A stretch of 64,000 bases of DNA, taken from contig NZ_CP095491.1 of the NCBI RefSeq assembly GCF_023028105.1, forward strand, positions 3,162,001 to 3,226,000. Direction: 5' to 3'. The notes below the pieces were generated by a model. That model was given only the letters and a program-made list of their open reading frames with translations. It did not search any database and was not told the origin of the DNA. A program made the translations under genes and the position numbers. Shown here piece after piece: positions 2,908-15,505 of this stretch. The stretch is from Halosolutus gelatinilyticus (GTDB lineage Archaea; Halobacteriota; Halobacteria; Halobacteriales; Natrialbaceae). Position 1 is the stretch's first letter. The number at the start of each line of letters is the position of its first letter.

Positions 2908-4458
2908 TTACAGCGGGATGTTGCCGTGTTTCTTGTCCGGGTTCTGCTCGCGTTTCGTTTCGAGCATCTCGAGGTCGTCGATCAGCCGCGGTCGCGTCTC
3001 GGTGGGGAGAATCACGTCGTCGAGGAAGCCCTTGTCCGTTGCAGTGTACGGGTTGGCGAATTCCTCGCGGTACTCCTCGATGAGTTCGTCGCGGAGTTCG
3101 TCCGGGTTGTCGGCTTCCTGGAGTTCCTTCCGGTAGAGGATGTTGACCGCACCCTGCGGGCCCATGACGGCGATCTCCGCGGTCGGCCAGGCGTAGTTGA
3201 CGTCCGCGCCGAGGTTCTTCGAGGCCATCACGCAGTAGGCGCCCCCGTAGGCCTTGCGGGTGATGACCGTCAGCAGCGGGACGCTCGCCTCGGAGTACGC
3301 GTAGAGAAGCTTCGCACCGTGGCGAATGATGCCGCGGTGTTCCTGATCGGTGCCGGGCATGTAGCCGGGGACGTCGACGAAGGTGACGATCGGGATGTTA
3401 AAGGAGTCACAGAAGCGGACGAACCGCGAGCCCTTCATCGAGGAGTCGACCGTGAGCGTCCCGGCGTTGACCCGGGGCTGGTTCGCGACGATTCCCACGG
3501 AGCGGCCGTCGAGACGCCCGAAGCCGACGACGAGTTCCTTCGCGTAGTTCTCCGCGACCTCGAAGAACGAGCCCTCGTCGACGACCGAGTCGATCACGTT
3601 GACCATGTCGTACGGCTTCTGGGGGCTCGACGGAACGATGGTTTCGAGGTCTTCGTCGCGCCGATCGGGGTCGTCCCACGGTTGGACTTGCGGCGGATCC
3701 TCGACGTTGTTCTGCGGGAGGTACGAGAGCAGGCGCTTGATGTCGTCGAGCGCCTGTTCCTCGCTGTCGCAGGCGAACTGGGCGACCCCGGTCTTGTCGG
3801 CGTGGGTCATCGCCCCGCCGAGTTCCTCGTGGGTGACCTCCTCGCCGGTGACGGTCTTGGTGACGCCGGGGCCGGTGATGTACATGTGGCTCGTGTCCTT
3901 CACCATGAAGATGAAGTCGGTGATCGACGGGGAGTAGACCGCCCCGCCGGCGCAGGGGCCCATGATCGAGGAGATCTGCGGGACGACGCCGCTTGCCTCC
4001 TGATTGCGCCGGAAGATCTCGGTGAAGCCGGCGAGGCTCTTGACGCCCTCCTGGATGCGCGCGCCCGCGGAGTCGTTGAGGCCGACGATCGGCGCGCCGA
4101 CCTCCATCGCCATGTCCATGACCTTGCAGATCTTCTCGGCGAAGACCTCCCCGAGCGAGCCGCCGAAGACGGTGAAGTCGTGTGCGAAGACGAAGACGGT
4201 TCGGCCGTTGACCTCGCCGTAGCCCGTGACGACGCCGTCGCCCGGGATCTTCTTCTCCTCCATCCCGAACTGGCTCGTCTGGTGGGTTCGGAGCTGATCG
4301 AACTCGGTGAAGGTGCCGTCGTCTATGAAGTAGTCGATCCGCTCGCGGGCGGTCATCTTCCCCTTGTCGTGTTGCCGTTCGATGCGATCCTCACCCCCGC
4401 CCTTTAGCGCTTCCTCCCGTAGCTCCTCTAACTCCGTGATGCGGTTCTCCATGGTCAT
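2908..4458 (-). CDS. pccB: propionyl-CoA carboxylase carboxyltransferase (beta) subunit
   Basis: Encodes 516 aa from ATG 4458 (MTMENRITELEEL); an in-frame ATG at 4452 is equally possible, and a GGAGG lies just upstream. It has the crotonase-like double domain of carboxyltransferases, including GDGVVTGYG, SGGARIQEG-type and GPCAGGAVYSPSITDF segments (N-terminal half) and RKAYGGAYCVM plus MGPQGAVN (C-terminal half). It moves CO2 from carboxybiotin to propionyl-CoA, giving methylmalonyl-CoA on the way to succinyl-CoA. The biotin carboxylase/BCCP subunit PccA is not in the window. The reaction drains propionyl-CoA from the methylaspartate cycle encoded near 55-62 kb and from amino-acid breakdown. 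Confidence 0.93.
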   Translation of the reverse strand: MTMENRITELEELREEALKGGGEDRIERQHDKGKMTARERIDYFIDDGTFTEFDQLRTHQTSQFGMEEKKIPGDGVVTGYGEVNGRTVFVFAHDFTVFGGSLGEVFAEKICKVMDMAMEVGAPIVGLNDSAGARIQEGVKSLAGFTEIFRRNQEASGVVPQISSIMGPCAGGAVYSPSITDFIFMVKDTSHMYITGPGVTKTVTGEEVTHEELGGAMTHADKTGVAQFACDSEEQALDDIKRLLSYLPQNNVEDPPQVQPWDDPDRRDEDLETIVPSSPQKPYDMVNVIDSVVDEGSFFEVAENYAKELVVGFGRLDGRSVGIVANQPRVNAGTLTVDSSMKGSRFVRFCDSFNIPIVTFVDVPGYMPGTDQEHRGIIRHGAKLLYAYSEASVPLLTVITRKAYGGAYCVMASKNLGADVNYAWPTAEIAVMGPQGAVNILYRKELQEADNPDELRDELIEEYREEFANPYTATDKGFLDDVILPTETRPRLIDDLEMLETKREQNPDKKHGNIPL

Positions 4459-4514
4459 GTTCGGGGCCCTCCGTGCCGAATCATCGGCCGAGACAACGGC
4501 GACGCGGACAAAAA

Positions 4515-4528
4515 ACGTTCTGCAACGT
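4515..4528. promoter_or_regulatory. short inverted repeat upstream of pccB
   Basis: ACGTT-CTGC-AACGT, a 5-bp perfect inverted repeat with a 4-base centre, lies 57 bases before the pccB start inside an A/T-rich patch (run of A at 4510-4515). It could be an operator near the pccB promoter, but it is short enough to occur by chance. Confidence 0.25.
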
Positions 4529-4714
4529 GACGATCGAGGGCGAGCGAACGCGGTGCAACTGCGGCTTCTGGGACGCCACGGGATAGATTTCGATCGAATC
4601 GCAACAGCCGGTTCGATCGGTTGATCCGCACGCTGAAAACGAGATGATACGAAAATAACACTGTAATCGTATCTGGTGGAGACACCATATAACGACCCTG
4701 CTATTTCACGCAAT

Positions 4715-4724
4715 TACTATATAG
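4715..4724 (+). promoter_or_regulatory. TATA box for the binding-protein gene at 4746
   Basis: TACTATATAG sits 22 bases before ATG 4746, the spacing expected if transcription starts at or just before the start codon (leaderless mRNA, common in haloarchaea). This supports 4746 rather than the out-of-frame ATG at 4741. Confidence 0.6.
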
Positions 4725-4745
4725 TCCGAGTTTCCTTGCTATGGT

Positions 4746-6062
4746 ATGGCGCGTCACGTCAAAAGACGAAGCGTTCTGAAGGGTGCCGGTGCAGCGGGAA
4801 TGATCAGCGTCGCGGGTTGTCTCGGCGGGGGTGACGACGGTAACGAAACCGGCGACGGCGGCGGCGGGAGCGAGATCGGCTTGCAAATCGAGACGAAGGT
4901 CGAGGACACCGAGACAAACTCCCAGAGTGGAGTTAGCGCGGCGAACTCGCTCGTCAATGCGGGCTTTCCGTCCATCTGCGGATCGGCGTCGTCCGGTGTG
5001 AACGTGCCGGTCTGTCAGGAAGTTCTCATTGACGGTAAGGTGGTGGGGTGCTCGCCGTCCAGTACCGCGCTGTCGGTCACGAATCTCGAAGACGACGATT
5101 ACATCTTCAGAACGGCCCCCTCGGACTTCCTGCAGGGCCAGGTGATGGCCCAAGTCGCGGCCGACGAACAAAGTGCCTCGACCGCGGCATCTCTCTACGT
5201 CAACAACGACTACGGCCAGCAGCTCTCCGAGCGGTTCACGGAGATCTTCGAGGGCGACGTCGGCGGAGAGATGCAGACGCAGGTCGCGTTCAACCAGGGC
5301 GAATCGTCGTACTCCTCGGTCGTCAACGAAGCGCTTTCGGGCGACCCGGACACGCTCGTCGTGATCGGCTATCCGGAAGACGGAATTCAGCTGTTCCGTG
5401 ACTTCTACGGCGTCGCCGATCAGAACCAGAGCGTCCTCGTTCCCGACGGTCTGCGCGATCCGGATATTCCCGGGCAGGTCGGCGCCGACATGAGTAACGT
5501 GCTCGGAACCGCGCCGGCCGCGGGCGGTCCGAATCAGGACGCCTTCGAGTCGCTGTTCGAAGACGCTTACGACAAGACGCCGGGCGTGTTCACTTCCCAG
5601 TCGTACGACTCGGTGGCCGTCCAGATCCTCGCCAACGCCGCGGCCGGCGAGAACGACGGTACGGCCATCCGCGATCAGATGCGTCGCGTGGCCAATCCCG
5701 AAGGGATGGAAGTCGGACCCGGCAACTTCGTCGAGGGCGTCGAGGCGGCGGCCGACGGCAAGGACGTCTTCTACAACGGAGCGTCCAGCGCGGTGAACTT
5801 CGACGAAAACGGCGATCCCGCGTCCGCGACGTACGCGCTGTGGGAGTTCGCCGACGGCAGTACCTCCGAAGTCACGACGCAGACCTTCGAGAGCGACAAT
5901 CCCGACGGCGCCGGCGAGATGGCCGACGAAGGGCCCGGCGGCTTCGATCGGACGATCAAAGTCGGCATCCTGCTCCCCGAAACCGGGGCGCTGGCGTCGA
6001 CCGGCGGGCCGATGATCCAGGCCGCCGAGCTGCCGGCCATGCAGGTCAACGGCGAGATTTAG
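4746..6062 (+). CDS. livK: branched-chain amino-acid type ABC transporter substrate-binding lipoprotein, circularly permuted
   Basis: 438 aa with a twin-arginine signal (R7-R8, RRSVLKG) and lipobox VAGC (Cys25), so Tat-exported and anchored outside the cell. The fold is type-1 periplasmic binding protein (LivK). The mature protein starts at about residue 42 with EIGLQIETKVEDTETNSQSG, which in ordinary LivK proteins is the SECOND beta-alpha unit. The usual first unit (IKVGILLPETGALASTGGPM...) sits at the extreme C-terminus, residues 404-438, ending ...MQVNGEI. Joining the end (NGEI) to the start (EIGLQIE) restores the normal order, so the domain is circularly permuted. A Gly/Asp/Glu-rich linker (about 375-399) precedes the moved unit. 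The gene converges on the livHMGF operon, whose permease and ATPases it presumably serves. All other core motifs of the family look intact. Confidence 0.88.
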   Translation: MARHVKRRSVLKGAGAAGMISVAGCLGGGDDGNETGDGGGGSEIGLQIETKVEDTETNSQSGVSAANSLVNAGFPSICGSASSGVNVPVCQEVLIDGKVVGCSPSSTALSVTNLEDDDYIFRTAPSDFLQGQVMAQVAADEQSASTAASLYVNNDYGQQLSERFTEIFEGDVGGEMQTQVAFNQGESSYSSVVNEALSGDPDTLVVIGYPEDGIQLFRDFYGVADQNQSVLVPDGLRDPDIPGQVGADMSNVLGTAPAAGGPNQDAFESLFEDAYDKTPGVFTSQSYDSVAVQILANAAAGENDGTAIRDQMRRVANPEGMEVGPGNFVEGVEAAADGKDVFYNGASSAVNFDENGDPASATYALWEFADGSTSEVTTQTFESDNPDGAGEMADEGPGGFDRTIKVGILLPETGALASTGGPMIQAAELPAMQVNGEI

Positions 6063-6086
6063 GCGATCGAACGAACACGTCGACGG

Positions 6087-6095
6087 TTTTTCTTT
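6087..6095 (+). terminator. T-rich terminator candidate
   Basis: A run TTTTTCTTT 25 bases after the livK stop, in the 136-base space between the convergent livK and livF. Archaeal transcription commonly stops at such T tracts; no hairpin is needed or seen. Confidence 0.4.
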
Positions 6096-6198
6096 GCGCC
6101 CGCTCGGAGTAGTCGCGTCGCCCTCGCGCTCGATCCCCGGCGACGGATCGAGACGATCGAAGAATCGACGATGGGATCGAAAAAGCGGTTTCGTCCGG

Positions 6199-7014
6199 CT
6201 ACCCGCCCAGGAAGTCCCGGCGAACCTGCGGATCGTTGAGCAGCGTCGTTCCGGCGTCCTCGTAGCGGTTCTTCCCGTCGACGAGGACGTACCCGCGATC
6301 GCACCGCCGAAGGGCCTCCTTGGCGTTCTGTTCGACCATCAGGACCGCCGTGCCCGTCTCGTTGATCCCGTCGATCCGATCGAACATATCGTCGACGAGG
6401 TCCGGCGCGAGCCCCGCGGAGGGCTCGTCCAGCAACAGTAGCTCGGGTTCGAGCATCAGCGCTCGTCCCATCGCGAGCATCTGCTGTTGGCCGCCGGAGA
6501 GGTTTCCGGCCTTCTGCGACTGGCGCTCCTCCAGGATCGGGAACCGCTCGAACACCGCCTCGAGGCGTTCCTGTGGCACCTCGTCGAGGATGTACGCGCC
6601 CATCTCCAGATTGTCCCGAACCGATAGCGTGGAGAAGACGTTGTCGTTCTGGGGAACGTAGCCCAGGCCGAGGTGGATGATATCCTCGGGGTTCTTTCCG
6701 GTGATAGCCTCGTCGTCGAAGGTGACGGTCCCGCCCATGTGCTCCGTCAACCCGAAGACGGATTTCATGAGGGTCGACTTTCCGGCCCCGTTCGGACCGA
6801 CGATCGTGACGTACTCCCCGGGGTCGACGTCGAGATAGACGTCGGTCAGGATCTGCAGATCGCCGTACCCCGCATCGAGGTCGCGCACCGCCAGCAGGCT
6901 ATCCTCGTGGAGTTCGACCTCGGACGCCGCGCTCGTCACTCCCGCGCCGTCGGTGCGCACGCCCCCGTCGGTTCCGTCGGCGCCCGCGTTCGCGTCGATC
7001 GGGTCGTCGCTCAT
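6199..7014 (-). CDS. livF: branched-chain amino-acid ABC transporter ATPase LivF
   Basis: 271 aa, with Walker A GPNGAGKST (73-81), signature LSGGQ (172-176) and Walker B LLLLDEP (193-199); the segment LGYVPQNDNVFSTLSVRDNL is characteristic of LivF. About 40 N-terminal residues are an acidic extension. It hydrolyses ATP at the cytoplasmic face of the Liv importer with LivG. Its start overlaps the end of livG by 4 bases, so the two are translationally coupled in the livHMGF operon. Confidence 0.94.
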   Translation of the reverse strand: MSDDPIDANAGADGTDGGVRTDGAGVTSAASEVELHEDSLLAVRDLDAGYGDLQILTDVYLDVDPGEYVTIVGPNGAGKSTLMKSVFGLTEHMGGTVTFDDEAITGKNPEDIIHLGLGYVPQNDNVFSTLSVRDNLEMGAYILDEVPQERLEAVFERFPILEERQSQKAGNLSGGQQQMLAMGRALMLEPELLLLDEPSAGLAPDLVDDMFDRIDGINETGTAVLMVEQNAKEALRRCDRGYVLVDGKNRYEDAGTTLLNDPQVRRDFLGG

Positions 7015-7883
7015 ACGTCACCTCCGAGATATGCCTCGATGACGGTTTCGTCGTTGCGAACCTCGTTCGGCGTCCCTTCGGTGAGAATACGACCCTGGTG
7101 CATTACGATGACCCGCTTACAGTTCTCCATGATGAGATCCATGTCGTGTTCGACGATGAGGAACGTGTAGCCTTCCTCGCGAAGTTCGTGAATGTGCTCG
7201 AGGAGCCGCTCTTCCAGTGAGGGATTGACCCCGGCGAACGGTTCGTCCAGCAACAGCATCTGCGGATCCGTCAACAGCGCGCGCGCGAGTTCAAGCAACT
7301 TCCGCTGTCCGCCCGAGAGGTTCCCGGCGTACTCGTTGGCCAGATGATCGATGTCGAAAAACTCGAGCGTCTCCCACACCCGATCGAGCAACGCCCGCTC
7401 TTGCTCTTTGACGCCGTCGCGAGCGTACGGAAGGACGGATCGCCAGAGCGCTTCCCCGCGCTGGTTCTTCGGCGCGACCATCATGTTCTCGAGAACGGTC
7501 ATCTCTTCGAGTTCCCGCGCGATCTGGAACGTACGCACCAGTCCCCGGTTTGCGATCTGATAGGGTTCCAAGCCGGTGATATCGGTTCCTTCGAATCGGA
7601 CGGTGCCGGCGGTCGGCTTGTGGACGCCGGTAATGCAGTTGAACGTCGTCGACTTGCCGGCGCCGTTGGGACCGATGAGCCCGGTCATGGTACCGCGTTC
7701 GATCTCGAAGGACGCCCCGTCGACGGCGGTGATGCCGCCGAACTCCTTACGGAGGTTCTCGACCTGTAACGGTACGTCGTGAGCGGCTGCAGGCTCGTCC
7801 TTGCCGGCGTTCTCCCCGGATCGGTCCGCTGGGGACGACGGACCCGGCGATGAAATCGGTTCGGAGGGATTGGATTCACTCAT
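7011..7883 (-). CDS. livG: branched-chain amino-acid ABC transporter ATPase LivG
   Basis: 290 aa: Walker A GPNGAGKST (71-79), signature LSGGQ (189-193), Walker B LLLDEP (210-215), and the LivG hallmarks RTFQIARELEEMTVLENMMV and VEHDMDLIMENC. Residues 1-36 are a disordered Pro/Ser/Asp-rich tail. It pairs with LivF as the second ATPase. The start overlaps livM by 8 bases and the stop overlaps livF by 4. Confidence 0.94.
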   Translation of the reverse strand: MSESNPSEPISSPGPSSPADRSGENAGKDEPAAAHDVPLQVENLRKEFGGITAVDGASFEIERGTMTGLIGPNGAGKSTTFNCITGVHKPTAGTVRFEGTDITGLEPYQIANRGLVRTFQIARELEEMTVLENMMVAPKNQRGEALWRSVLPYARDGVKEQERALLDRVWETLEFFDIDHLANEYAGNLSGGQRKLLELARALLTDPQMLLLDEPFAGVNPSLEERLLEHIHELREEGYTFLIVEHDMDLIMENCKRVIVMHQGRILTEGTPNEVRNDETVIEAYLGGDV

Positions 7884-9285
7884 CGAGATCGCCCCCGTCG
7901 GCGGCCAGGGTGCCGGACTGCTCGCGCCTCGGCCTCGTTAACGGGACGCTCGCAGCGATCTCTTTCCTGTGACCTAATATCCCCTCCGGCCGGTTGTGCA
8001 TGAGCCAGACGAGTACGAGTCCCATGATAACCAGCTGAAGCTGTCTGAGGCTGTCGAGCGTGTACAACAGTAACGGAACGACGTCCGGTAGCTCCGCGAT
8101 CGCAGGGCCGAAACTAGGCGGCGCGCTGGGATCGCCGAGAGCGCTTTCGACGATATTTTTGAAGTAGCGCGGACCCTGATACAGGAACGCCGCGAAGATA
8201 GCGCCGCCGAGGACGCTCCCCGTGTTCGAGCCGGATCCGCCGATGATGAGGGCGATCCAGATGTAGAAGGTGATGCGCGGTCGGAACGTGTTCGGCGTTA
8301 CCGACCCCTGGGTGCCGAACCAGAGGATGCCTACGAGCCCCATCAGGGCGCAACCGACCATGAACGACTTGATCTTGAACTGATTCGTGTTTTTCCCCAG
8401 GGCGTTCGTGACGTCTTCGTCCTCGCGGATCGCCTTGAGCACTCGACCGAACGGCGAGTTCCCCGTTCGAACCAGAAGCGCGTAGAACCCGCCCATCACG
8501 ACGAGCAACAGTCCGGCGTAGACGAAGTTATCCACGACGGCTTTCGGGTTCGTAGTGATGACGAGCCCGGCGGTTTCGACGATCGCGCCGAGGTACACGT
8601 CCTCCCAGAGTACGTGTTCCTGTCCCAGTAAGAGATCGAACGGCCAACTGAGCCCTTTGATGAACAGTTCGAGCGGATCGCCGTAGTCGAGGATGATCCC
8701 GTCGCCGCCGCCGAGGCCGATCCTGTAGCCGCCGACGTCGGAGCCGCTGAACGTATCCGAAAGCAGGGTGAAGCGAACGATCTCCGACAGCGCGATGGTG
8801 ACGATCGCGAGGTAGTCGGCGCGCAGGCGCAACGCGGGAAGGGCCGCGATCAGGCCCATGAGCGCCGCGGCGAGCATGCCGCCGATGATACCGATCCAGA
8901 GGGGAAGTCCCAGCCCACCGACCTCCGCGGCGCTGGTGCCGGAACCGTAGACCGGTTTCGAGAGGATCGCGGTCACGTAGACGCCGGTCGCCATGAACGC
9001 GACGATCCCGATGTTGAACAGTCCGGTGTACCCCCACTGGAGGTTCAACGCGAGCGCCGCCATTCCGAAGACGGCGATCCAGAACGTGAGTTGGCCGATC
9101 TGATTCACGAGCCCGCGGAGGGGAAATCCGATGATGAGGCCGCCGATCAAGTAGACCACGTAGATCCCCAGTAACAGCGCCAGTAGCATGGCCGCGTCGT
9201 AGCCAAACAATCTGGAGACGTTTTGAGCGGCGCTCTGGCCGTATCCGGATTCGTCCGCGTCGGAACCGGAATCCGCATCGGTCAT
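7876..9285 (-). CDS. livM: branched-chain amino-acid ABC transporter permease LivM
   Basis: Starts at ATG 9285 (MTDADSGSDADESG), which overlaps the livH stop as ATGA; the frame stays open upstream but that part is antisense-like over livH. 469 aa with eight or more hydrophobic segments and the LivM core GYTGLFNIGIVAFMATGVYV and RLRADYLAIVTIALSEIVRF. It is longer than bacterial LivM, with extra extracytoplasmic loops in the middle (about residues 190-260) and a polar C-terminal tail. It forms the membrane channel with LivH. Confidence 0.93.
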   Translation of the reverse strand: MTDADSGSDADESGYGQSAAQNVSRLFGYDAAMLLALLLGIYVVYLIGGLIIGFPLRGLVNQIGQLTFWIAVFGMAALALNLQWGYTGLFNIGIVAFMATGVYVTAILSKPVYGSGTSAAEVGGLGLPLWIGIIGGMLAAALMGLIAALPALRLRADYLAIVTIALSEIVRFTLLSDTFSGSDVGGYRIGLGGGDGIILDYGDPLELFIKGLSWPFDLLLGQEHVLWEDVYLGAIVETAGLVITTNPKAVVDNFVYAGLLLVVMGGFYALLVRTGNSPFGRVLKAIREDEDVTNALGKNTNQFKIKSFMVGCALMGLVGILWFGTQGSVTPNTFRPRITFYIWIALIIGGSGSNTGSVLGGAIFAAFLYQGPRYFKNIVESALGDPSAPPSFGPAIAELPDVVPLLLYTLDSLRQLQLVIMGLVLVWLMHNRPEGILGHRKEIAASVPLTRPRREQSGTLAADGGDLDE

Positions 9286-10400
9286 GCTGTCGCCCTCCCG
9301 GAGAAGATGCCCTGCGGACGAACCACCAGGACGAGGATCATCACGACGAAGGCTGCCGCGCGGGCAAACCCGGACGGGATCCAGATGACCGCGGTCGAAG
9401 CTGTCACTCCGATGACCAGGCCCCCGAGGATCGCGCCGTAGATGGACCCGATACCGCCCAGAATCACGGCCGCGAAGATGAGCAACAGCAACAGCCAGCC
9501 GTCGTTGAACGCGATCGTCCCCTTCCAGAGGACGAACATGTACCCCGCGACGCCGGTGAGTCCGCCGCCGATTATCCAGGTCGAACGGATGACCCGCTCG
9601 GTCGGGATGCCGGTGATTCGCGCGAGGGATTCGTCGTCGGACATCGCCCGCATCGCCTTGCCGAGTTTCGTCCGCTGGAGTAACAGGTGAACGCCGAGCA
9701 TTAACCCGCCTGCGACGACGATGAGTGCCAGGTCGTGGGCGGTGAACTGAACCGTTCCGTCGACGATCTCCGGACGGGTTTGCGGTATCGATCCGATCGC
9801 CGTCGTTCCGCGAGTGTCCGAGCCGAAGACGAACAGCAGGAGGTACCTGAGCGCGAAGGCGACGCCGATACTCGTGATGAGCAGCGGAATCCCGCCGGCG
9901 TCGCGGATCGGCTTGAACCCGTATCGATCGACCCCGAGCGCGAGGACGATCGCGACCCCCCCGGCGACGATCAGGCCCGCGATCACGGCCAGCGGCGTTT
10001 CCGCGACGTTGATTCCGAGCGCGCCGCCGAATACGGAACCGCCGGAGCCGACGAGAGCGAGCGAGATCATGTCGGCTTCGGAGCCGAAGCCGCCGGCGAC
10101 GATGTAGGTCGCCGCCCATCCCGAGAACGCGCCCGCGGTGATGTAGTCACCGTGGGCGAAATTGGCGAAATTCAATATGCTGTAGGTCATCGAGAGGCCG
10201 ACGCCGGCGAGGCCGATGACCAAGCCTCGCATGAGACCGTCCCAGGTGAGCGCAACCAATCGAGCGACGGTGAGATCGCCGGTCGCGAGCTGGCGAACCA
10301 TGTCGACCAGTAACAGGACGGCGACGAAGACGAGGACGAGTGCCAGCGGTTGTTCGACGGCTATTCGCCGCACTCGATCGGGCGCGGTTTCTACGCTCAT
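9282..10400 (-). CDS. livH: branched-chain amino-acid ABC transporter permease LivH
   Basis: 372 aa, first gene of the livHMGF operon. It is a multi-spanning permease with the LivH signature GLAGVGLSMTYSILNFANFAHGDYITAGAF and the C-terminal GGIGSIYGAILGGLVIG. The ATG at 10400 is preceded by GGAGG at 10407-10411, a good Shine-Dalgarno site. Partner of LivM in the membrane; substrate class (Leu/Ile/Val, or a related amide or urea) is inferred from family only. Confidence 0.94.
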   Translation of the reverse strand: MSVETAPDRVRRIAVEQPLALVLVFVAVLLLVDMVRQLATGDLTVARLVALTWDGLMRGLVIGLAGVGLSMTYSILNFANFAHGDYITAGAFSGWAATYIVAGGFGSEADMISLALVGSGGSVFGGALGINVAETPLAVIAGLIVAGGVAIVLALGVDRYGFKPIRDAGGIPLLITSIGVAFALRYLLLFVFGSDTRGTTAIGSIPQTRPEIVDGTVQFTAHDLALIVVAGGLMLGVHLLLQRTKLGKAMRAMSDDESLARITGIPTERVIRSTWIIGGGLTGVAGYMFVLWKGTIAFNDGWLLLLLIFAAVILGGIGSIYGAILGGLVIGVTASTAVIWIPSGFARAAAFVVMILVLVVRPQGIFSGRATA

Positions 10401-10882
10401 ACAGTTCCTCCGGCCGAATTCGGCGCTCCCCCACCTGTTCGAATAGTGATGTTATGCAGATCAGTCAACCATACGAAAATTGTACGTTCGTCCGTACAAC
10501 GGAACCAATCGAAAACGTTCTCGGCCCGGTTTCGCAGTCGTATAGTCATATGTCCCACCCCCAGTACGAGCACTGCTGCACGTCAACTGTGCACATATCT
10601 GCCTTGACTGTTACACTGCGGGTAGATATAATTCACGCAATTCAAACCGAGTTACACATATCGGGAATCATAGACGGACGAGAGCCGGGGCGAGAACGGC
10701 CGATACGGGAGTTTGTCGAGTGTCTGCAAACGGCGCAATCGTCCGCCTCGACGCGCCGGAGAAGGCGTCAGTACTGGACTCGCGATCGGCCCCCTCACAC
10801 ATCGGCAGGCGTACGACCGATGACCGCGAGAAGGAAGCGGCCGAGTGAGCTCGACCGCTCGTTAGAAGCCAGCAGATGCCGT
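10401..10882. promoter_or_regulatory. 482-base regulatory gap upstream of livHMGF
   Basis: No protein gene is supported here; it lies between the divergent-side start of livH and the end of the SDR gene. It is A/T-rich at 10440-10680 compared with its surroundings and holds the perfect palindrome at 10480-10499. The long forward open frame covering it and the SDR gene has antisense composition and is not credible. Confidence 0.5.
10480..10499. promoter_or_regulatory. perfect 7-bp inverted repeat, candidate operator of livHMGF
   Basis: TTGTACG-TTCGTC-CGTACAA: 7-bp arms with a 6-base centre, 80-99 bases upstream of the livH start in the A/T-rich part of the gap. Its dyad symmetry and GTAC-containing half sites suit a dimeric regulator. 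Function is inferred from position only. Confidence 0.4.
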
Positions 10883-11605
10883 TTACGCCTCCCCGTAGAC
10901 CGGCACGGCGGCCCCGCTGGTCACCGACGCGCCGTCGCTACAGAGAAACGCCATCACGTCGGCGATGTCGCCGGGATCGACCCACGACTCGTGATCCGCG
11001 TCGGGCATCATCTCGCGGTTCGCCGGCGTGTCGATCACGCTCGGCATGACGCAGTTCGCGCGGACGGCGCCCCGGTTCTCCTCGGCCAGCGTTTCGGTCA
11101 GCAGCCGGATGCCGGCCTTGGTGATCCGGTAGGGGCCGTCGCCCTCACCTCCCGAAAGCGACGATCGGGCGCTGACGCCCACGATCGAGCCCTCCGACTC
11201 CTGAAGGTGCGGGAGCGAGTGCTTCGAGGCCAGAAACGCCGTCTTCAGGTTGATGTCGACGAGCATGTCGAACTCCGATACCGGGGTCTCCTCGATCGGA
11301 TCGCCGCCGCGCCAGGTTCCGGCGATGTTCAGCAGGTGGTCGATGCGGCCGTGTTCGTCGACGATCGTCGAGACGAGGTCGGAGACGTCGTCCTCGTCGG
11401 TCAGATCCGCTTCGTAGAAGTGGATTCCCTCATCCCGGTCGAGCAGACTGTCCTCGTCGTCGGGTGCGACGACGTCGACGGCGCACACCGTCGCGCCGGC
11501 CTCCCGGAACCGATCGACGGTCGCGCTCCCGAGAGCCCCGCTCGCGCCGGTGACGATCGCGACCGTGCCGTCGAAGTCGACGTCGTACGTTCTGGTCGGT
11601 GCCAT
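10883..11605 (-). CDS. short-chain dehydrogenase/reductase (SDR)
   Basis: 240 aa from ATG 11605 (MAPTRTYDVDFDG); an upstream ATG at 11635 would add 10 residues with less typical sequence. NAD(P)-binding motif TGASGALG (Ala replaces the usual second Gly), NIAG, and the catalytic YxxxK as YRITK, with Ser in the preceding ARSSLSG. A cytosolic Rossmann-fold oxidoreductase, probably of the FabG-like type. The substrate is unknown; no pathway partner is adjacent. Confidence 0.88.
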   Translation of the reverse strand: MAPTRTYDVDFDGTVAIVTGASGALGSATVDRFREAGATVCAVDVVAPDDEDSLLDRDEGIHFYEADLTDEDDVSDLVSTIVDEHGRIDHLLNIAGTWRGGDPIEETPVSEFDMLVDINLKTAFLASKHSLPHLQESEGSIVGVSARSSLSGGEGDGPYRITKAGIRLLTETLAEENRGAVRANCVMPSVIDTPANREMMPDADHESWVDPGDIADVMAFLCSDGASVTSGAAVPVYGEA

Positions 11606-11689
11606 ACGAAAAAGTGCGTCGTCCGGTGGGATCAATTTCGGGGTCGGTTTCCCGCTTCGAAATCGGGCGTGGCCGAGCCGCGCCGCTCG

Positions 11690-12148
11690 TCAGGAGGGAA
11701 CCGGCGGCAGTGCAGCCTCGTCGAACCAGAACCGCTCGACGGCGCTGGCGATCGAGACGAACGCGTCGGGATCGGTCGGCTTGGTGAGGTAGGCGTTCGC
11801 GCACTTCGCATAGCTCTCCCGGACGTCCTCCGTCGCTTCGGAACTCGTCAGCACGATGATCGGAATCGTCGCTACCGCCGGCTCCCCCTGGATCGCTTCG
11901 AGGAACTCGAAGCCGTCCATGCGGGGGAGGTTCAGATCCAGCAAGACGAGATCGGGGACCGCAGTCGACGGATTCGCGTGCCGCTCGGTGAGGAACTCGA
12001 GCGCTTCGTCGCCGTCGGTCGCGACATGAATGGTGGTCTCGGTCGGAACGGCGGCGAAAGCTTCCTGAGTGAGCCGAACGTCGCCCGGATTGTCCTCGAC
12101 GAGGAGAACGTGGACCTCGTCGGCCGGAGCGGAAGCCTCGTCGGTCAT
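11690..12148 (-). CDS. single-domain response regulator (Rcp1-like)
   Basis: 152 aa from ATG 12148 (MTDEASAPAD). It is a receiver domain only: acidic pair E18-D19, phospho-acceptor D71 in LLDLNLPRMDG, T101 and K123 in LTKP. It has the insertion-containing pattern of Rcp1-type regulators that act with phytochrome-like or other histidine kinases. It lacks an output domain, so it works by protein-protein contact or as a phosphate relay. No kinase gene is adjacent. Confidence 0.9.
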   Translation of the reverse strand: MTDEASAPADEVHVLLVEDNPGDVRLTQEAFAAVPTETTIHVATDGDEALEFLTERHANPSTAVPDLVLLDLNLPRMDGFEFLEAIQGEPAVATIPIIVLTSSEATEDVRESYAKCANAYLTKPTDPDAFVSIASAVERFWFDEAALPPVPS

Positions 12149-12341
12149 GACGAAGCACTTCCTCGAGGACACCACACGGTAAAACGTCTCATCTGGGGTA
12201 CCGTCTGATAGTTACCGGAAGTGCTTAACGCTGCATCCTATCCACTTTGGAACGACGGTCGTTTACGATTCCCGCTGGTCGGTCGACGAACGTGAAATCG
12301 GACGAGGAACTAATGCCGCTCGCGACCGTTGCTAGCGGCGA

Positions 12342-13001
12342 ATGCGACTGATCGCGCACCGCGGATTCGCGTCGATGGCACCCGAGAACACGATCGCCGC
12401 TCTCACGTCCGCTGCCGGCCGGGCCGACGCCGTGGAGTTCGACGTCCGCCGCTGCGGATCGGGCGAACTGGTCGTCATTCACGACGAGACGATCGACCGC
12501 GTCACGGGCGGGATCGGCACCGTTGCCGACACCGGTCTCGACGAACTCCGGACGTACACGGTCCTCGAATCCGGCGAGCGGGTTCCCACGCTCGAAGAGG
12601 TCCTCTCGGCCCTGCCGCCGGCCGTCGAGATCAACCTCGAGATGAAAGAGCTAGGGATCGCCGCGGACATCCTGGACGCGATCGAGGACGTCGAGAACCG
12701 GGTCGTCACGACGTCCTTTCTCGCGCCCGAACTGCGGACGGTCCGTGAGATCGATCCGAGCCAGCCCACGGGCCTGCTGGCCAGTCGCCACCTCGACGCG
12801 CCCGTCACGACCGCGGTGGAACTCGACTGCGACGTGATCGGCGCGAACTACTGGCGCTGTCTCACCACGCGACTCGTCCCCCGGGCGAAGTCGCTCGGCC
12901 TCGAAGTTCACTCGTGGTCGATCGAACGGCCCCTCACCGCCAAACTGCTCGAGCTGCGCGGCGTCGACTACGTGTCGGCCGATCGGCCGATCTGCGTTTG
13001 A
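12342..13001 (+). CDS. ugpQ: glycerophosphodiester phosphodiesterase
   Basis: 219 aa with the GDPD hallmarks HRGFASMAPENT (His6-Arg7), VEFDV and VIHDE near the N-terminus, EINLEMK in the middle and EVHSWSIE near the end, forming the metal-binding TIM barrel. It hydrolyses glycerophosphodiesters to glycerol phosphate and an alcohol. The length matches compact archaeal and bacterial cytosolic forms and there is no signal peptide. The gene is alone, divergent from the response regulator. Confidence 0.93.
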   Translation: MRLIAHRGFASMAPENTIAALTSAAGRADAVEFDVRRCGSGELVVIHDETIDRVTGGIGTVADTGLDELRTYTVLESGERVPTLEEVLSALPPAVEINLEMKELGIAADILDAIEDVENRVVTTSFLAPELRTVREIDPSQPTGLLASRHLDAPVTTAVELDCDVIGANYWRCLTTRLVPRAKSLGLEVHSWSIERPLTAKLLELRGVDYVSADRPICV

Positions 13002-13019
13002 GTCGCCGGTCTGTTGTGA

Positions 13020-13500
13020 GTTGCGTTCCCGCGTTCCGAACGCTGTGTCCGATCGATTTCGGGTGTGGACTGATCACTTCGGGATATCTCTGCAGGGTGG
13101 CTCCTTCGCCTTTTCAACGGAAACTACCACGACGAAAGCCCTCGGCGGGTCCGCGGTCGCTCAGACAGATATCCTCACTTCGTTCGGATAGTGCTGCCTG
13201 AGCGACTCCACTCCGACGCGACCCCGCCTCGTCCTTTCAATCCACCAGGTCTGACACTGTTCCTGCCCTCCCCCGAGTCACGCGGCACGGCTCGTAGATG
13301 TGCGGAGCCGCGTTCCTGGCCACGGCACGCTGGCGAGGGATCCGAGCGATTGCGAGGATCCCTCGCCGATTCGTGAGGGACGAGTGAGCGAGTGTGCGAG
13401 CGAACGAGTCGGCTGGGGAGGGCGAGGCTCGGGCGGGACTGAAAGGGGCCGCGTCGCCTGAGGACGGCGGGCGCAGCCCTTGCGAGTGCGACGAGCGAGG
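13020..13500. repeat. non-coding stretch rich in inverted repeats (haloarchaeal extragenic repeat type)
   Basis: About 600 bases after the phosphodiesterase gene (13002-13613) hold no credible gene. An outer imperfect dyad pairs the GCCCTCCCC/CCTTTCAATCC side (about 13230-13280) with the GGACTGAAAGG/GGGGAGGGC side (about 13415-13450). An inner perfect hairpin is at 13332-13367. The CTGCAGGGTGGCTCCTTCGCC segment (about 13092) and CGAGTGAGCGAGTG-type runs resemble sequences I have seen scattered in haloarchaeal intergenic regions; that recollection is not verified here. Confidence 0.45.
13332..13367. repeat. perfect 12-bp hairpin
   Basis: GGCGAGGGATCC (13332-13343) and its exact reverse complement GGATCCCTCGCC (13356-13367) enclose a 12-base loop. 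This is the tip of the larger dyad-rich stretch. It could form RNA or cruciform structure; no function is known. Confidence 0.6.
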
Positions 13501-13613
13501 GATCTGCAAGATGCGCAGCGTCTCGTAGAGTAAGGACCGCAGCCGACCGCCGGGAGGCGAGAACCGCAGCGAACCCTCCGACTCGAGCGTCGCGGGAGCT
13601 TTCGAGGGGATCT

Positions 13614-13621
13614 CTTAGCCT
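13614..13621. repeat. left target-site duplication, 8 bp
   Basis: CTTAGCCT directly abuts the left inverted repeat. The identical 8 bases follow the right inverted repeat at 14501-14508, which is the footprint of a transposition event. Confidence 0.8.
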
Positions 13622-14500
13622 GGCTTTGTTGAAACCCTCAAACGGTGATAGATTTTAGCAGCCGTGTTGAATACACAGCGCGAATGTCGCATGAGATATG
13701 GCTCGATTTGCGAAGGCGGTGATCGCCCAATGCAGAACAACTAATTAGCGGTCGGATGCCTCGAAATACTCCTCTCGTGAAATCGTGTATCTGTGAACGT
13801 CGGCTACGGTATCTGCCTGTGGATGCCAATTCCGCAAAAGCCCCTCGTATTGGCCGTCATACCATTCAACGTACCTTTCGATTGCTCGTCGAGACTTCTC
13901 GTTCCCGCCAACGTGGGCGGCAACAACGAGTTCGAGGTCGAGTCGGTCAAACGCGACAGAGAGGATGGCATCGGCTCGTTCACCTGAATACCCGCGCCCC
14001 CAAGATCGCTTGTCGAGGATGATACCGAGGCTGGCAGACCGTTTCTCCCAGTCGGGGTACAGGCCCGTCGTTCCAGCGATGGCACCTGCCCCGTCTTCGC
14101 CTTCCTTTGGTCGTATCACGTATTTTGCTGCCTCCCCATCGTTCCACAGTTGTTCTGCTTCGTCCACGTAGTCGTACGTCTCTTTCACCGTGTCGTGAGG
14201 GTTCGAATCCCAGTATTCGAACATTTCCGCAGTTTCGTCGCCATTGCCGTAGAACTCATGGAGAACAAATACATCGACAGTGTCGTGTGAAATTCGTTCG
14301 AGATGGAGGCGTTCCGTCTCGATGCGTTCAGGAAACATAGTGTACTATTCGTAGCCGTCAGTAATCATTGTTGAGTACGCAGATCTACTGAGCGGATAGT
14401 TCACCTGTTTCGGCGTGAAACAAACAATGCTGTCGTACTGAACCCATCCTCTGTATTCAGCAGACTGTTTGTATCAATCACGAAGGGTTTCAACAGAGCC
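13622..14500. mobile_element. 879-bp transposase-less insertion unit carrying an acetyltransferase gene
   Basis: The ends are inverted repeats: GGCTTTGTTGAAACCCT at 13622-13638 and, on the other strand, GGCTCTGTTGAAACCCT at 14484-14500 (16 of 17 identical). Both sides are flanked by the same 8-bp duplication CTTAGCCT. A subterminal TGAATACA motif occurs about 42-47 bases in from both ends. The only gene inside is the GNAT at 13745-14338; there is no transposase. Base composition inside is clearly poorer in G+C than the neighbours. Such units fit a mobile insertion cassette moved in trans by an IS with matching ends. The 8-bp duplication suits IS1595 or IS6 relatives; family assignment is inference. 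Confidence 0.85.
13745..14338 (-). CDS. GNAT family N-acetyltransferase (RimJ/RimL type), passenger of the insertion unit
   Basis: 197 aa opening MFPERIETERLHLERI, typical of the RimJ/RimL branch. The acetyl-CoA pyrophosphate loop is seen as KRSWGRGYSGERADAI (about 108-123) and the following strand/helix as LDLELVVAAHVGGNEKSRRAIE. It is complete and apparently intact. The substrate is unknown; relatives acetylate protein N-termini, amino sugars or drugs. It lies alone within the inverted-repeat unit, its codon use is less G+C-biased than its neighbours, and it was probably acquired by transfer. Confidence 0.88.
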   Translation of the reverse strand: MFPERIETERLHLERISHDTVDVFVLHEFYGNGDETAEMFEYWDSNPHDTVKETYDYVDEAEQLWNDGEAAKYVIRPKEGEDGAGAIAGTTGLYPDWEKRSASLGIILDKRSWGRGYSGERADAILSVAFDRLDLELVVAAHVGGNEKSRRAIERYVEWYDGQYEGLLRNWHPQADTVADVHRYTISREEYFEASDR

Positions 14501-14508
14501 CTTAGCCT
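14484..14508. repeat. right inverted repeat and right target-site duplication
   Basis: AGGGTTTCAACAGAGCC (14484-14500) is the reverse complement of the left end with one mismatch. It is followed immediately by CTTAGCCT (14501-14508), identical to the left copy. Confidence 0.8.
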
Positions 14509-14594
14509 GTAAAGTGGTCGTCGTGGCAGACGGAGCAAAATACGCGGTGCAAGACTCACACCCGAAATCGATCGGGCGGGAGCGATACCGACGC

Positions 14595-14993
14595 TCAGTC
14601 TCCGACGATCGTCGCCGACACCTCCCGCGTTCGCGGGCCGTCGCACTCGACCAGCAGGATCGATTGCCAGGTCCCGAGCGTGAGGTCGCCGTCGACGATC
14701 GGGATCGTCACGTCCGGCCCGAGCAGCGTGGCCCGGAGGTGCGAGTCAGCGTTGCCGTCGAGTTCGTCGTGGGCGTAACCCTCGTCGGGAACGAGATCGC
14801 GGAGGAACGACTCGATATCGCCGCGCAGCCGGGGTTCGTTCTCCTGGACGACGAGGCCAGCAGTCGTATGCCGGACGAACGCCGTGCACGTCCCCGACCG
14901 GAGCTCCGCCGGAACGGCGTCGGCGATCCGATCGGTCACGTCGACGGTCGTCAGTCGATCGTCCGTTTCGACGGTGAACGTGTTGCGTGTCAC
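14595..14993 (-). CDS. UPF0047 / YjbQ family protein
   Basis: 132 aa with all family marks: AFVRHTTAGLVVQENEP, DGNADSHLRATLLG and the C-terminal LGTWQSILLVECDGPRTREV. The conserved His, Asn and Glu residues of the beta-barrel active site are present. E. coli YjbQ has weak thiamine-phosphate synthase activity, but the true role of the family is not settled. It shares direction with the GNAT gene 65 bases upstream at 15059, so a small operon is possible. Confidence 0.93.
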   Translation of the reverse strand: MTRNTFTVETDDRLTTVDVTDRIADAVPAELRSGTCTAFVRHTTAGLVVQENEPRLRGDIESFLRDLVPDEGYAHDELDGNADSHLRATLLGPDVTIPIVDGDLTLGTWQSILLVECDGPRTREVSATIVGD

Positions 14994-15058
14994 GTTCGGG
15001 CGATCGGGGCGAACGACGAAGTTCGTTACGTCGGCGCGGCGTCGGTCGGGACCGGACG

Positions 15059-15505
15059 CTACAGGGACTTTCGCATACAGGTGGCCGTCGATGGGCAGAG
15101 TTCGGCGAACTCCGTCGTCTCCCGAATCGCCTCGGGCGCGTCGTCGCGATCGATCTCCCGGTAGCTACGAGCGACGAAGAACTCCACGGCGGTCATCGTG
15201 AGCAGGTACAGCGCCTCGACCCCGTCGCCGCGAGCCTCGGCCTCCAGTGCGTCGCACAGCGCCGTCCCGTATCCGGTTCCCCGGACCGATCGCTCGACGA
15301 CGACCGATCGGAGCAGTCCGTCGCTCCCGTCGCGTTCGATCCCGCCGACACCGATCGGATCCTCGTCGGCGTACCCGACGTAGAAACACTCGGGCTTCGA
15401 TCGGACGTCCCGCGACGGGAGGTCGTTCTCCTCCAGCAGGGACTCGAGGTACGATAGCCCTCTCCCGTCGTCGGCTCGGGTCAGTGATATCGGCGCGTCG
15501 GCCAT
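15059..15505 (-). CDS. GNAT acetyltransferase, ArsN2-like
   Basis: 148 aa. The GNAT core is LRSVVVERSVRGTGYGTALCDALE (acetyl-CoA loop RGTGYG, about residues 75-80). The end, PEAIRETTEFAELCPSTATCM, is the pattern of the ArsN2/arsenic N-acetyltransferase-like branch. There are no ars genes nearby, so a role in arsenic handling is not supported by context. The start MADAPISLTRAD is well placed. Confidence 0.8.
   Translation of the reverse strand: MADAPISLTRADDGRGLSYLESLLEENDLPSRDVRSKPECFYVGYADEDPIGVGGIERDGSDGLLRSVVVERSVRGTGYGTALCDALEAEARGDGVEALYLLTMTAVEFFVARSYREIDRDDAPEAIRETTEFAELCPSTATCMRKSL

Follow-up and report, generated by a model that had tools for sequence, protein, structure and literature searches.

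The binding protein encoded at positions 4746-6062 on the plus strand (438 amino acids) is, with a probability of roughly 0.86, a second-generation circular permutant of the LivK family, acting as a Tat-exported, lipid-anchored binding protein of the adjacent LivFGMH-type importer. Unless another locus is named, nucleotide positions refer to the window, i.e. the complete analysed stretch of 64,000 nucleotides. The segments of the protein were delimited by comparison with conventional relatives, in which LivK proteins have the order A-B-C. The window protein has the order signal-B-C-linker-A (designated CP-B), while another permuted form has the order signal-C-linker-A-B (CP-A).

The gene is preceded by a TATA-like element TACTATATAG about 26 nt 5′ of the start codon (4715-4724, plus strand), a probable leaderless haloarchaeal promoter. 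The DNA block immediately 5′ of the ATG, including this element, is nearly identical in the window and in the single contig of G001, a distinct genome from the same genus, while the sequences further upstream have diverged. A scan for sigma-70 promoters and terminators gave no result, the models being ill-suited to archaea. The first 24 codons (4746-4817, plus strand) were read as a Tat-type signal peptide MARHVKRRSVLKGAGAAGMISVAG, to which Pfam TAT_signal matches weakly at residues 5-18 with a score under its curated cut-off. It is followed by the lipobox Cys25 and a Gly/Asp-rich tether of residues 26-44 (4818-4877, plus strand); residues 1-39 have mostly pLDDT values below 50. The N-terminal signal peptide and lipobox pointed out in the earlier note are borne out by the twin-arginine motif KRRSVLK and the lipobox VAGC, and by these motifs the protein qualifies as a haloarchaeal Tat lipoprotein with predicted lipidation. 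After the tether, the domain begins with segment B (residues 45-198; 4878-5339), which is homologous to the stretch following the first unit in conventional relatives and runs from the conventional beta2 onward. Segment C (residues 199-380; 5340-5885) corresponds in the homology map to the conventional C-terminal half. A linker FESDNPDGAGEMADEGPGGF (residues 381-400; 5886-5945), defined by junction comparison and modelled with a block-mean pLDDT of about 87-94, connects the conventional C-terminus to segment A (residues 401-438; 5946-6059), the conventional first beta-alpha unit by homology and by its predicted strand and helix, with the stop codon right after it; all these segments lie on the plus strand. 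Segment A shares 55% identity with the N-terminal unit of the conventional paralogue of the same genome and 46-88% with the internal A of CP-A relatives.

The permuted order was evident from the comparison with Pfam Peripla_BP_6, which scored 101.3 bits (cut-off 31.7; E 1.2e-28) and matched in two stretches. In the best one, residues 40-320 cover profile positions 36-315; the first ~35 profile positions are therefore absent N-terminally. Because the profile match splits in two, ordinary profiles annotate these permuted haloarchaeal binding proteins only in part. The same order followed from the own conventional paralogue: its N-terminal part (C1:967374-967511) is matched by residues 393-438 (E 1.2e-6), and the immediately following stretch (C1:967506-968513) by residues 43-376. 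In the conventional order, beta1-alpha1 stands at the mature N-terminus; here it comprises residues 402-434 of 438. The paralogue map thereby confirms the earlier note, according to which the mature protein starts with the normal second unit and ends with the first. Also its statement that both ends fit as one continuous family sequence held, as MQVNGEI plus IGLQIETKVEDTET continues like VEQVQGEIDLEIDYEVADTAT in the own paralogue. The DNA motif GCGAGAT shared by both ends, to which meaning had been attached, was dismissed as a scar: the window contains 21 copies of this 7-mer where 23.2 are expected by chance, and within the gene there is a third copy at 5914. A second partial domain at the C-terminus in addition to a complete first unit at the N-terminus was rejected likewise, since residues 26-44 are merely the Gly/Asp-rich tether and leave the N-terminus without a second first unit.

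The segment order of G001 is identical, with 90% identity over residues 1-438, which excludes a misassembly at 6000-6062. The NG86 dN/dS ratios between the window and G001 were 0.17 overall, 0.11 for B, 0.23 for C, and 0.11 for A (401-438), the 20-residue linker being too short for a useful estimate, and A had the lowest NG86 dN among the segments. Purifying selection thus acts on the window gene, unit A included. Nothing in support of an assembly artefact or a pseudogene at 6000-6062 was found, and with the same order in G001, an intact reading frame and selection acting also on unit A, the chance of either is negligible.

AlphaFold2 modelled the window protein with a pLDDT of 89.9 and a pTM of 0.86 from an alignment of 97 rows, in which permuted and conventional relatives had been entered as fragments in the permuted order, an arrangement that favours the permuted model. 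Poorly modelled regions were the signal and the tether only. Residues 44-383 of the model superimposed on residues 55-368 of Thermotoga maritima LivK (3td9) with Z 31.0 and an rmsd of 3.1 over 308 aligned residues; in this alignment, the first unit of the 3td9 chain has no partner at the start and A is surplus at the end. A type I two-lobed fold is accordingly what the model predicts for the window protein. The structure prediction proposed in the earlier note gave a strand at 402-410 and a helix at 417-434 for A, both with high confidence, and from the model confidence and the fold, A would pack in the conventional place of the N-terminal lobe. As this placement comes from prediction, the C-terminal unit might instead be an extra non-functional tail or act in trans by domain swapping; we regard this as very unlikely in view of the confident strand and helix, the overall pTM, the low dN of A, and an N-terminal lobe that would miss its first strand without A. 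A CP-A protein (L019) was modelled equally well (pLDDT 89.2, pTM 0.86), and its residues 237-430 aligned to residues 1-193 of 3ipc (Z 13.6), so that the C-terminal half of CP-A is the conventional N-terminal half. Segment order, the independent genome, selection, and structure prediction thus support the proposal, made from the window, that a LivK-type protein has been circularly permuted in nature.

The first set of ORFs, sorted by segment order, contained 39 conventional A-B-C forms (30 haloarchaeal and 9 bacterial), 68 CP-A, and 4 CP-B. In the 68 CP-A ORFs, the part corresponding to window residues 199-435 comes first and that corresponding to 42-198 second. Over B and C, identity to the window protein reaches 70-74% in the nearest CP-A proteins, whereas the best of the conventional haloarchaeal forms compared has 57%. 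Relatives with the same order, for which the earlier note had suggested a search, were found in G001 and a few uncultivated haloarchaea (L040, L041, L160, L161, L162, and L163, the protein of L160 being 98% identical to that of L041 and perhaps coming from the genome of L040), and CP-B was restricted to these and the window. The C-linker-A fusion, which marks any permuted form, was present in at least 114 of 391 genomes sampled from the class and in 30 of 86 genera; a divergent group at ~50% identity falls under the threshold of this count, so the true number exceeds 114. Nearly all permuted forms whose order could be assigned were CP-A. In a sampling for the C-A fusion that covered 295 genomes of the archaeal phylum, permuted forms were confined to the taxonomic order of the window species. 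Many CP-A proteins (e.g. L051, L057, L047, and L056) carry, between lipobox and domain, long Gly/Asp/Ser/Asn repeat tethers that vary in length, such as DSGGDSGG, DGGDGG, and NGNGGNGNG. Divergent CP-A proteins with different, longer linkers were seen in L165 (3170-4765), which makes up one group, and in L166 (3892-5379), L167 (3972-5483), L168 (3774-5249), and L169 (3736-5379), which make up another. With these other linkers and no settled deep position for the two groups, the step from the conventional form to CP-A may have occurred more than once.

Comparison of the junctions indicated how the two permuted forms are related. CP-A proteins start after a Gly-rich tether with GPDxLxVIGYPE and terminate a few residues past SSYSSVVNEAMS. 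At this old cut site, CP-B proteins are closed: the B/C seam of the window protein (NEALS/GDPDT; 5337-5351, plus strand) reads NEALSGDPDTLVVIGYPE, that of L040 QSALSGDPDGLFVVGYPE, and that of L162 QEALADGPDVVNVIGYPE, all with the length of the conventional ESALADDPDMMIVIGYPA. The linker from C to A is common to both permuted forms, as illustrated by FEGENPDGAGPSADESPGGFG in a CP-A example. Every new C-terminus of CP-B falls within the alpha1-beta2 loop, but the residues differ: MQVNGEI, LEVNEADLDIS, KMWNDQM, or KMWSNR directly before the stop. The old site at conventional length together with new ends in the alpha1-beta2 loop suggests that in a second step the chain was sealed at the old cut and opened at a new one.

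In a B+C tree of 107 rows, the permuted proteins of the main group (CP-A and CP-B) formed one branch (support 100/99), with CP-B inside CP-A at two places. After adding L161-L163, a tree of 72 rows had CP-B at three places, each forced by well supported branches: the window protein and G001 beside CP-A of Halorubellus (G008) and Halalkalirubrum, L040/L041/L161 beside L097, and L162/L163 beside Haloglomus-type CP-A. A single CP-B clade was rejected by the AU test (dlnL 108, p 2e-8), while constraining the two non-window CP-B groups together gave p 0.017, i.e. moderate separation only. The number of changes required was 3 with CP-A as the ancestral form and 18 with CP-B as ancestor and changes from CP-B to CP-A only. 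Since the nearest relatives carry the other permutation and enclose the window form in the tree, the single-step origin from a conventional gene, by tandem duplication and loss of the outer parts, given in the earlier note does not fit; duplication itself is retained as the putative mechanism. The nesting of CP-B in CP-A and the rejection of one CP-B origin point to a likely path from conventional A-B-C via CP-A to CP-B. Judged from these trees, at least two CP-B origins appear firm and a third is probable.

Trees calculated from B alone and from C+A alone placed the CP-B groups alike, which is evidence against mosaic genes, and a mosaic origin of CP-B was rejected on this basis. The concordance bears also on the idea that CP-B arose once, spread by gene transfer, and then recombined with local CP-A genes. 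Gene transfer and recombination are frequent in haloarchaea, and the same new cut in all CP-B proteins would be explained; however, with B and C+A giving the same separate positions, transfer would need replacement of nearly the whole gene by CP-A sequence with the order left unchanged. Together with the AU test against a single origin and the CP-B ends that differ already (NGEI, NEADLDIS, and NDQM or SNR before the stop), this makes such a history quite improbable. Slightly better, yet still unlikely, is the assumption that CP-A and CP-B were each trimmed directly from a long-lived double-length gene A-B-C-linker-A-B-C, with CP-B never passing through CP-A. It accounts for the shared linker and for the seamless B/C join in CP-B without any re-closing, but it conflicts with the strongly supported nesting of CP-B in CP-A at two to three places and with the single cut site common to all main-group CP-A proteins, and no double-length gene was among the ORFs fetched.

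The preferred history, conventional to CP-A to CP-B, would have proceeded as follows. In a first step within haloarchaea, the C-terminus of a conventional LivK protein would have been joined to its first unit via a linker of ~20 residues, and the chain opened in a helix-strand loop of the C-terminal lobe at residue 198/199, giving CP-A (C-linker-A-B). In a second step, in the ancestor of the window species and its sister and separately elsewhere, the 198/199 cut would have been sealed again at the length seen in conventional proteins, with a new opening made in the alpha1-beta2 loop, giving CP-B (B-C-linker-A). Unit A would return to the position in the N-terminal lobe that it has in conventional proteins, so that the two lobes would still close on the solute like a "Venus flytrap", while the lipid tether would join the N-terminal lobe at beta2 instead of beta1 and the linker would add an interlobe crossing. 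Tandem gene duplication followed by trimming is the putative molecular route. Tandem pairs of CP-A genes adjoining livF/livG were observed in three Haladaptatus-type genomes, L090 (4001-5194 and 5441-6652), L171 (3880-5205 and 5313-6692), and L172 (3799-5205 and 5317-6630). Such pairs indicate that the required duplication does happen, and as the two copies form separate clades, the pair predates these species. Beside the CP-B genes checked, no remnants of B, C, or A were detected, the matches in L163 being the gene itself. We consider it rather probable that permutation in this family was serial and convergent, from the conventional form to CP-A (possibly more than once) and then to CP-B three times independently, each time with the old cut closed seamlessly and the same new loop opened, all three orders occurring at one chromosomal locus in related genera. 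It is surprising, and counts against this explanation, that three events should all have arrived at one new cut and at a seam as long as the conventional one.

The window gene is convergent with livF-livG-livM-livH, all on the minus strand. The LivF-type ATPase (6199-7014) is a neighbour in nearly all haloarchaeal loci examined, the LivG-type ATPase (7011-7883) and the LivH-type permease (9282-10400) are conserved neighbours, and the LivM-type permease (7876-9285, start approximate) is partly conserved. The flanks consist of pccB, an SDR gene, a response regulator gene, and a GDPD gene, and a cytochrome P450-like ORF (176-1576) was noted near the liv locus. G001 has the same neighbourhood with CP-B. 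In G002, likewise a congeneric genome, the same flanks enclose a conventional LivK, and LivH is more distant (57% identity compared to 88% in G001); region 5915-15257 of the G002 locus (L156), set beside 2908-13001 of the window, looks as if the entire liv cassette had been swapped in place between shared flanks. Natrialba (L093) and G282 (L170) have the order pccB, CP-A, livFGH, and CP-A genes of other families are also convergent with livF and livG. The genetic link to LivFGMH importer genes is thus present in the window and its relatives, and because conventional, CP-A, and CP-B forms were all found at the pccB-livK-livFGMH locus, all three would serve the same kind of importer. Most likely, the window protein is a two-lobed binding protein of the usual kind that delivers its ligand to LivFGMH, with a putative role in transport. 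By gene order, the neighbouring pccB hints at branched-chain amino acids or related propionyl-yielding compounds as putative substrate.

Where natural circular permutations are known, they are usually one-off events of great age. The present gene family includes three chain orders and many sequenced members; the direction of change is clear, and the second step was taken repeatedly. It can be regarded as a natural experiment on how a protein survives rearrangement, with one old cut and a second cut made separately in several lineages. If true, serial convergent permutation would suggest that one molecular route is favoured or that selection acts on the attachment site of the tether. As close relatives are available for the three orders, they can be used to test by which route permutation proceeds, what it costs in folding, and what role the position of the lipid anchor plays.

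Compared to conventional LivK/LivJ proteins (Peripla_BP_6; e.g. T. maritima TM1135, PDB 3td9), the window protein shares the family, the fold over residues 44-383 (Z 31), and the LivFGMH neighbourhood, but differs in the rotated order of its units and in the tether placed before beta2 instead of beta1. In the open-access literature, to which the search extended (subscription journals being outside its scope), no description of a permutation in the LivK family or in haloarchaeal binding proteins was found. A naturally permuted type I binding protein, TpMglB-2 (Tp0684) of Treponema pallidum, has been described, for which the class "Type Ic / Cluster Bc" was proposed and which still binds its ligand and closes on it (PMC4990184). 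TpMglB-2 and the window protein are both permuted, two-lobed, lipid-anchored binding proteins of ABC importers, with strands of the N-lobe at the C-terminus and an additional interlobe crossover (PMC4990184). TpMglB-2 belongs to a sugar-binding family, whereas the window protein is of the LivK family; the moved part comprises the first three N-lobe strands in TpMglB-2 and the first strand and helix only in the window protein, and its sequence similarity to conventional forms is poor in the former and plain in the latter (PMC4990184). The available text describes no second permutation atop the first for TpMglB-2, in contrast to the path proposed for the family of the window protein (PMC4990184). 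With its different cut, the permutation in the window is independent of TpMglB-2 as described there. Permuted half proteins of type I binding proteins from a study on fold evolution were reportedly made for the study, whereas here whole natural genes occur in three orders. Permuted type I binding proteins as such were therefore known; what is new is that they occur in the LivK family and are cut at these two sites, and most of all that a second permutation took place repeatedly.
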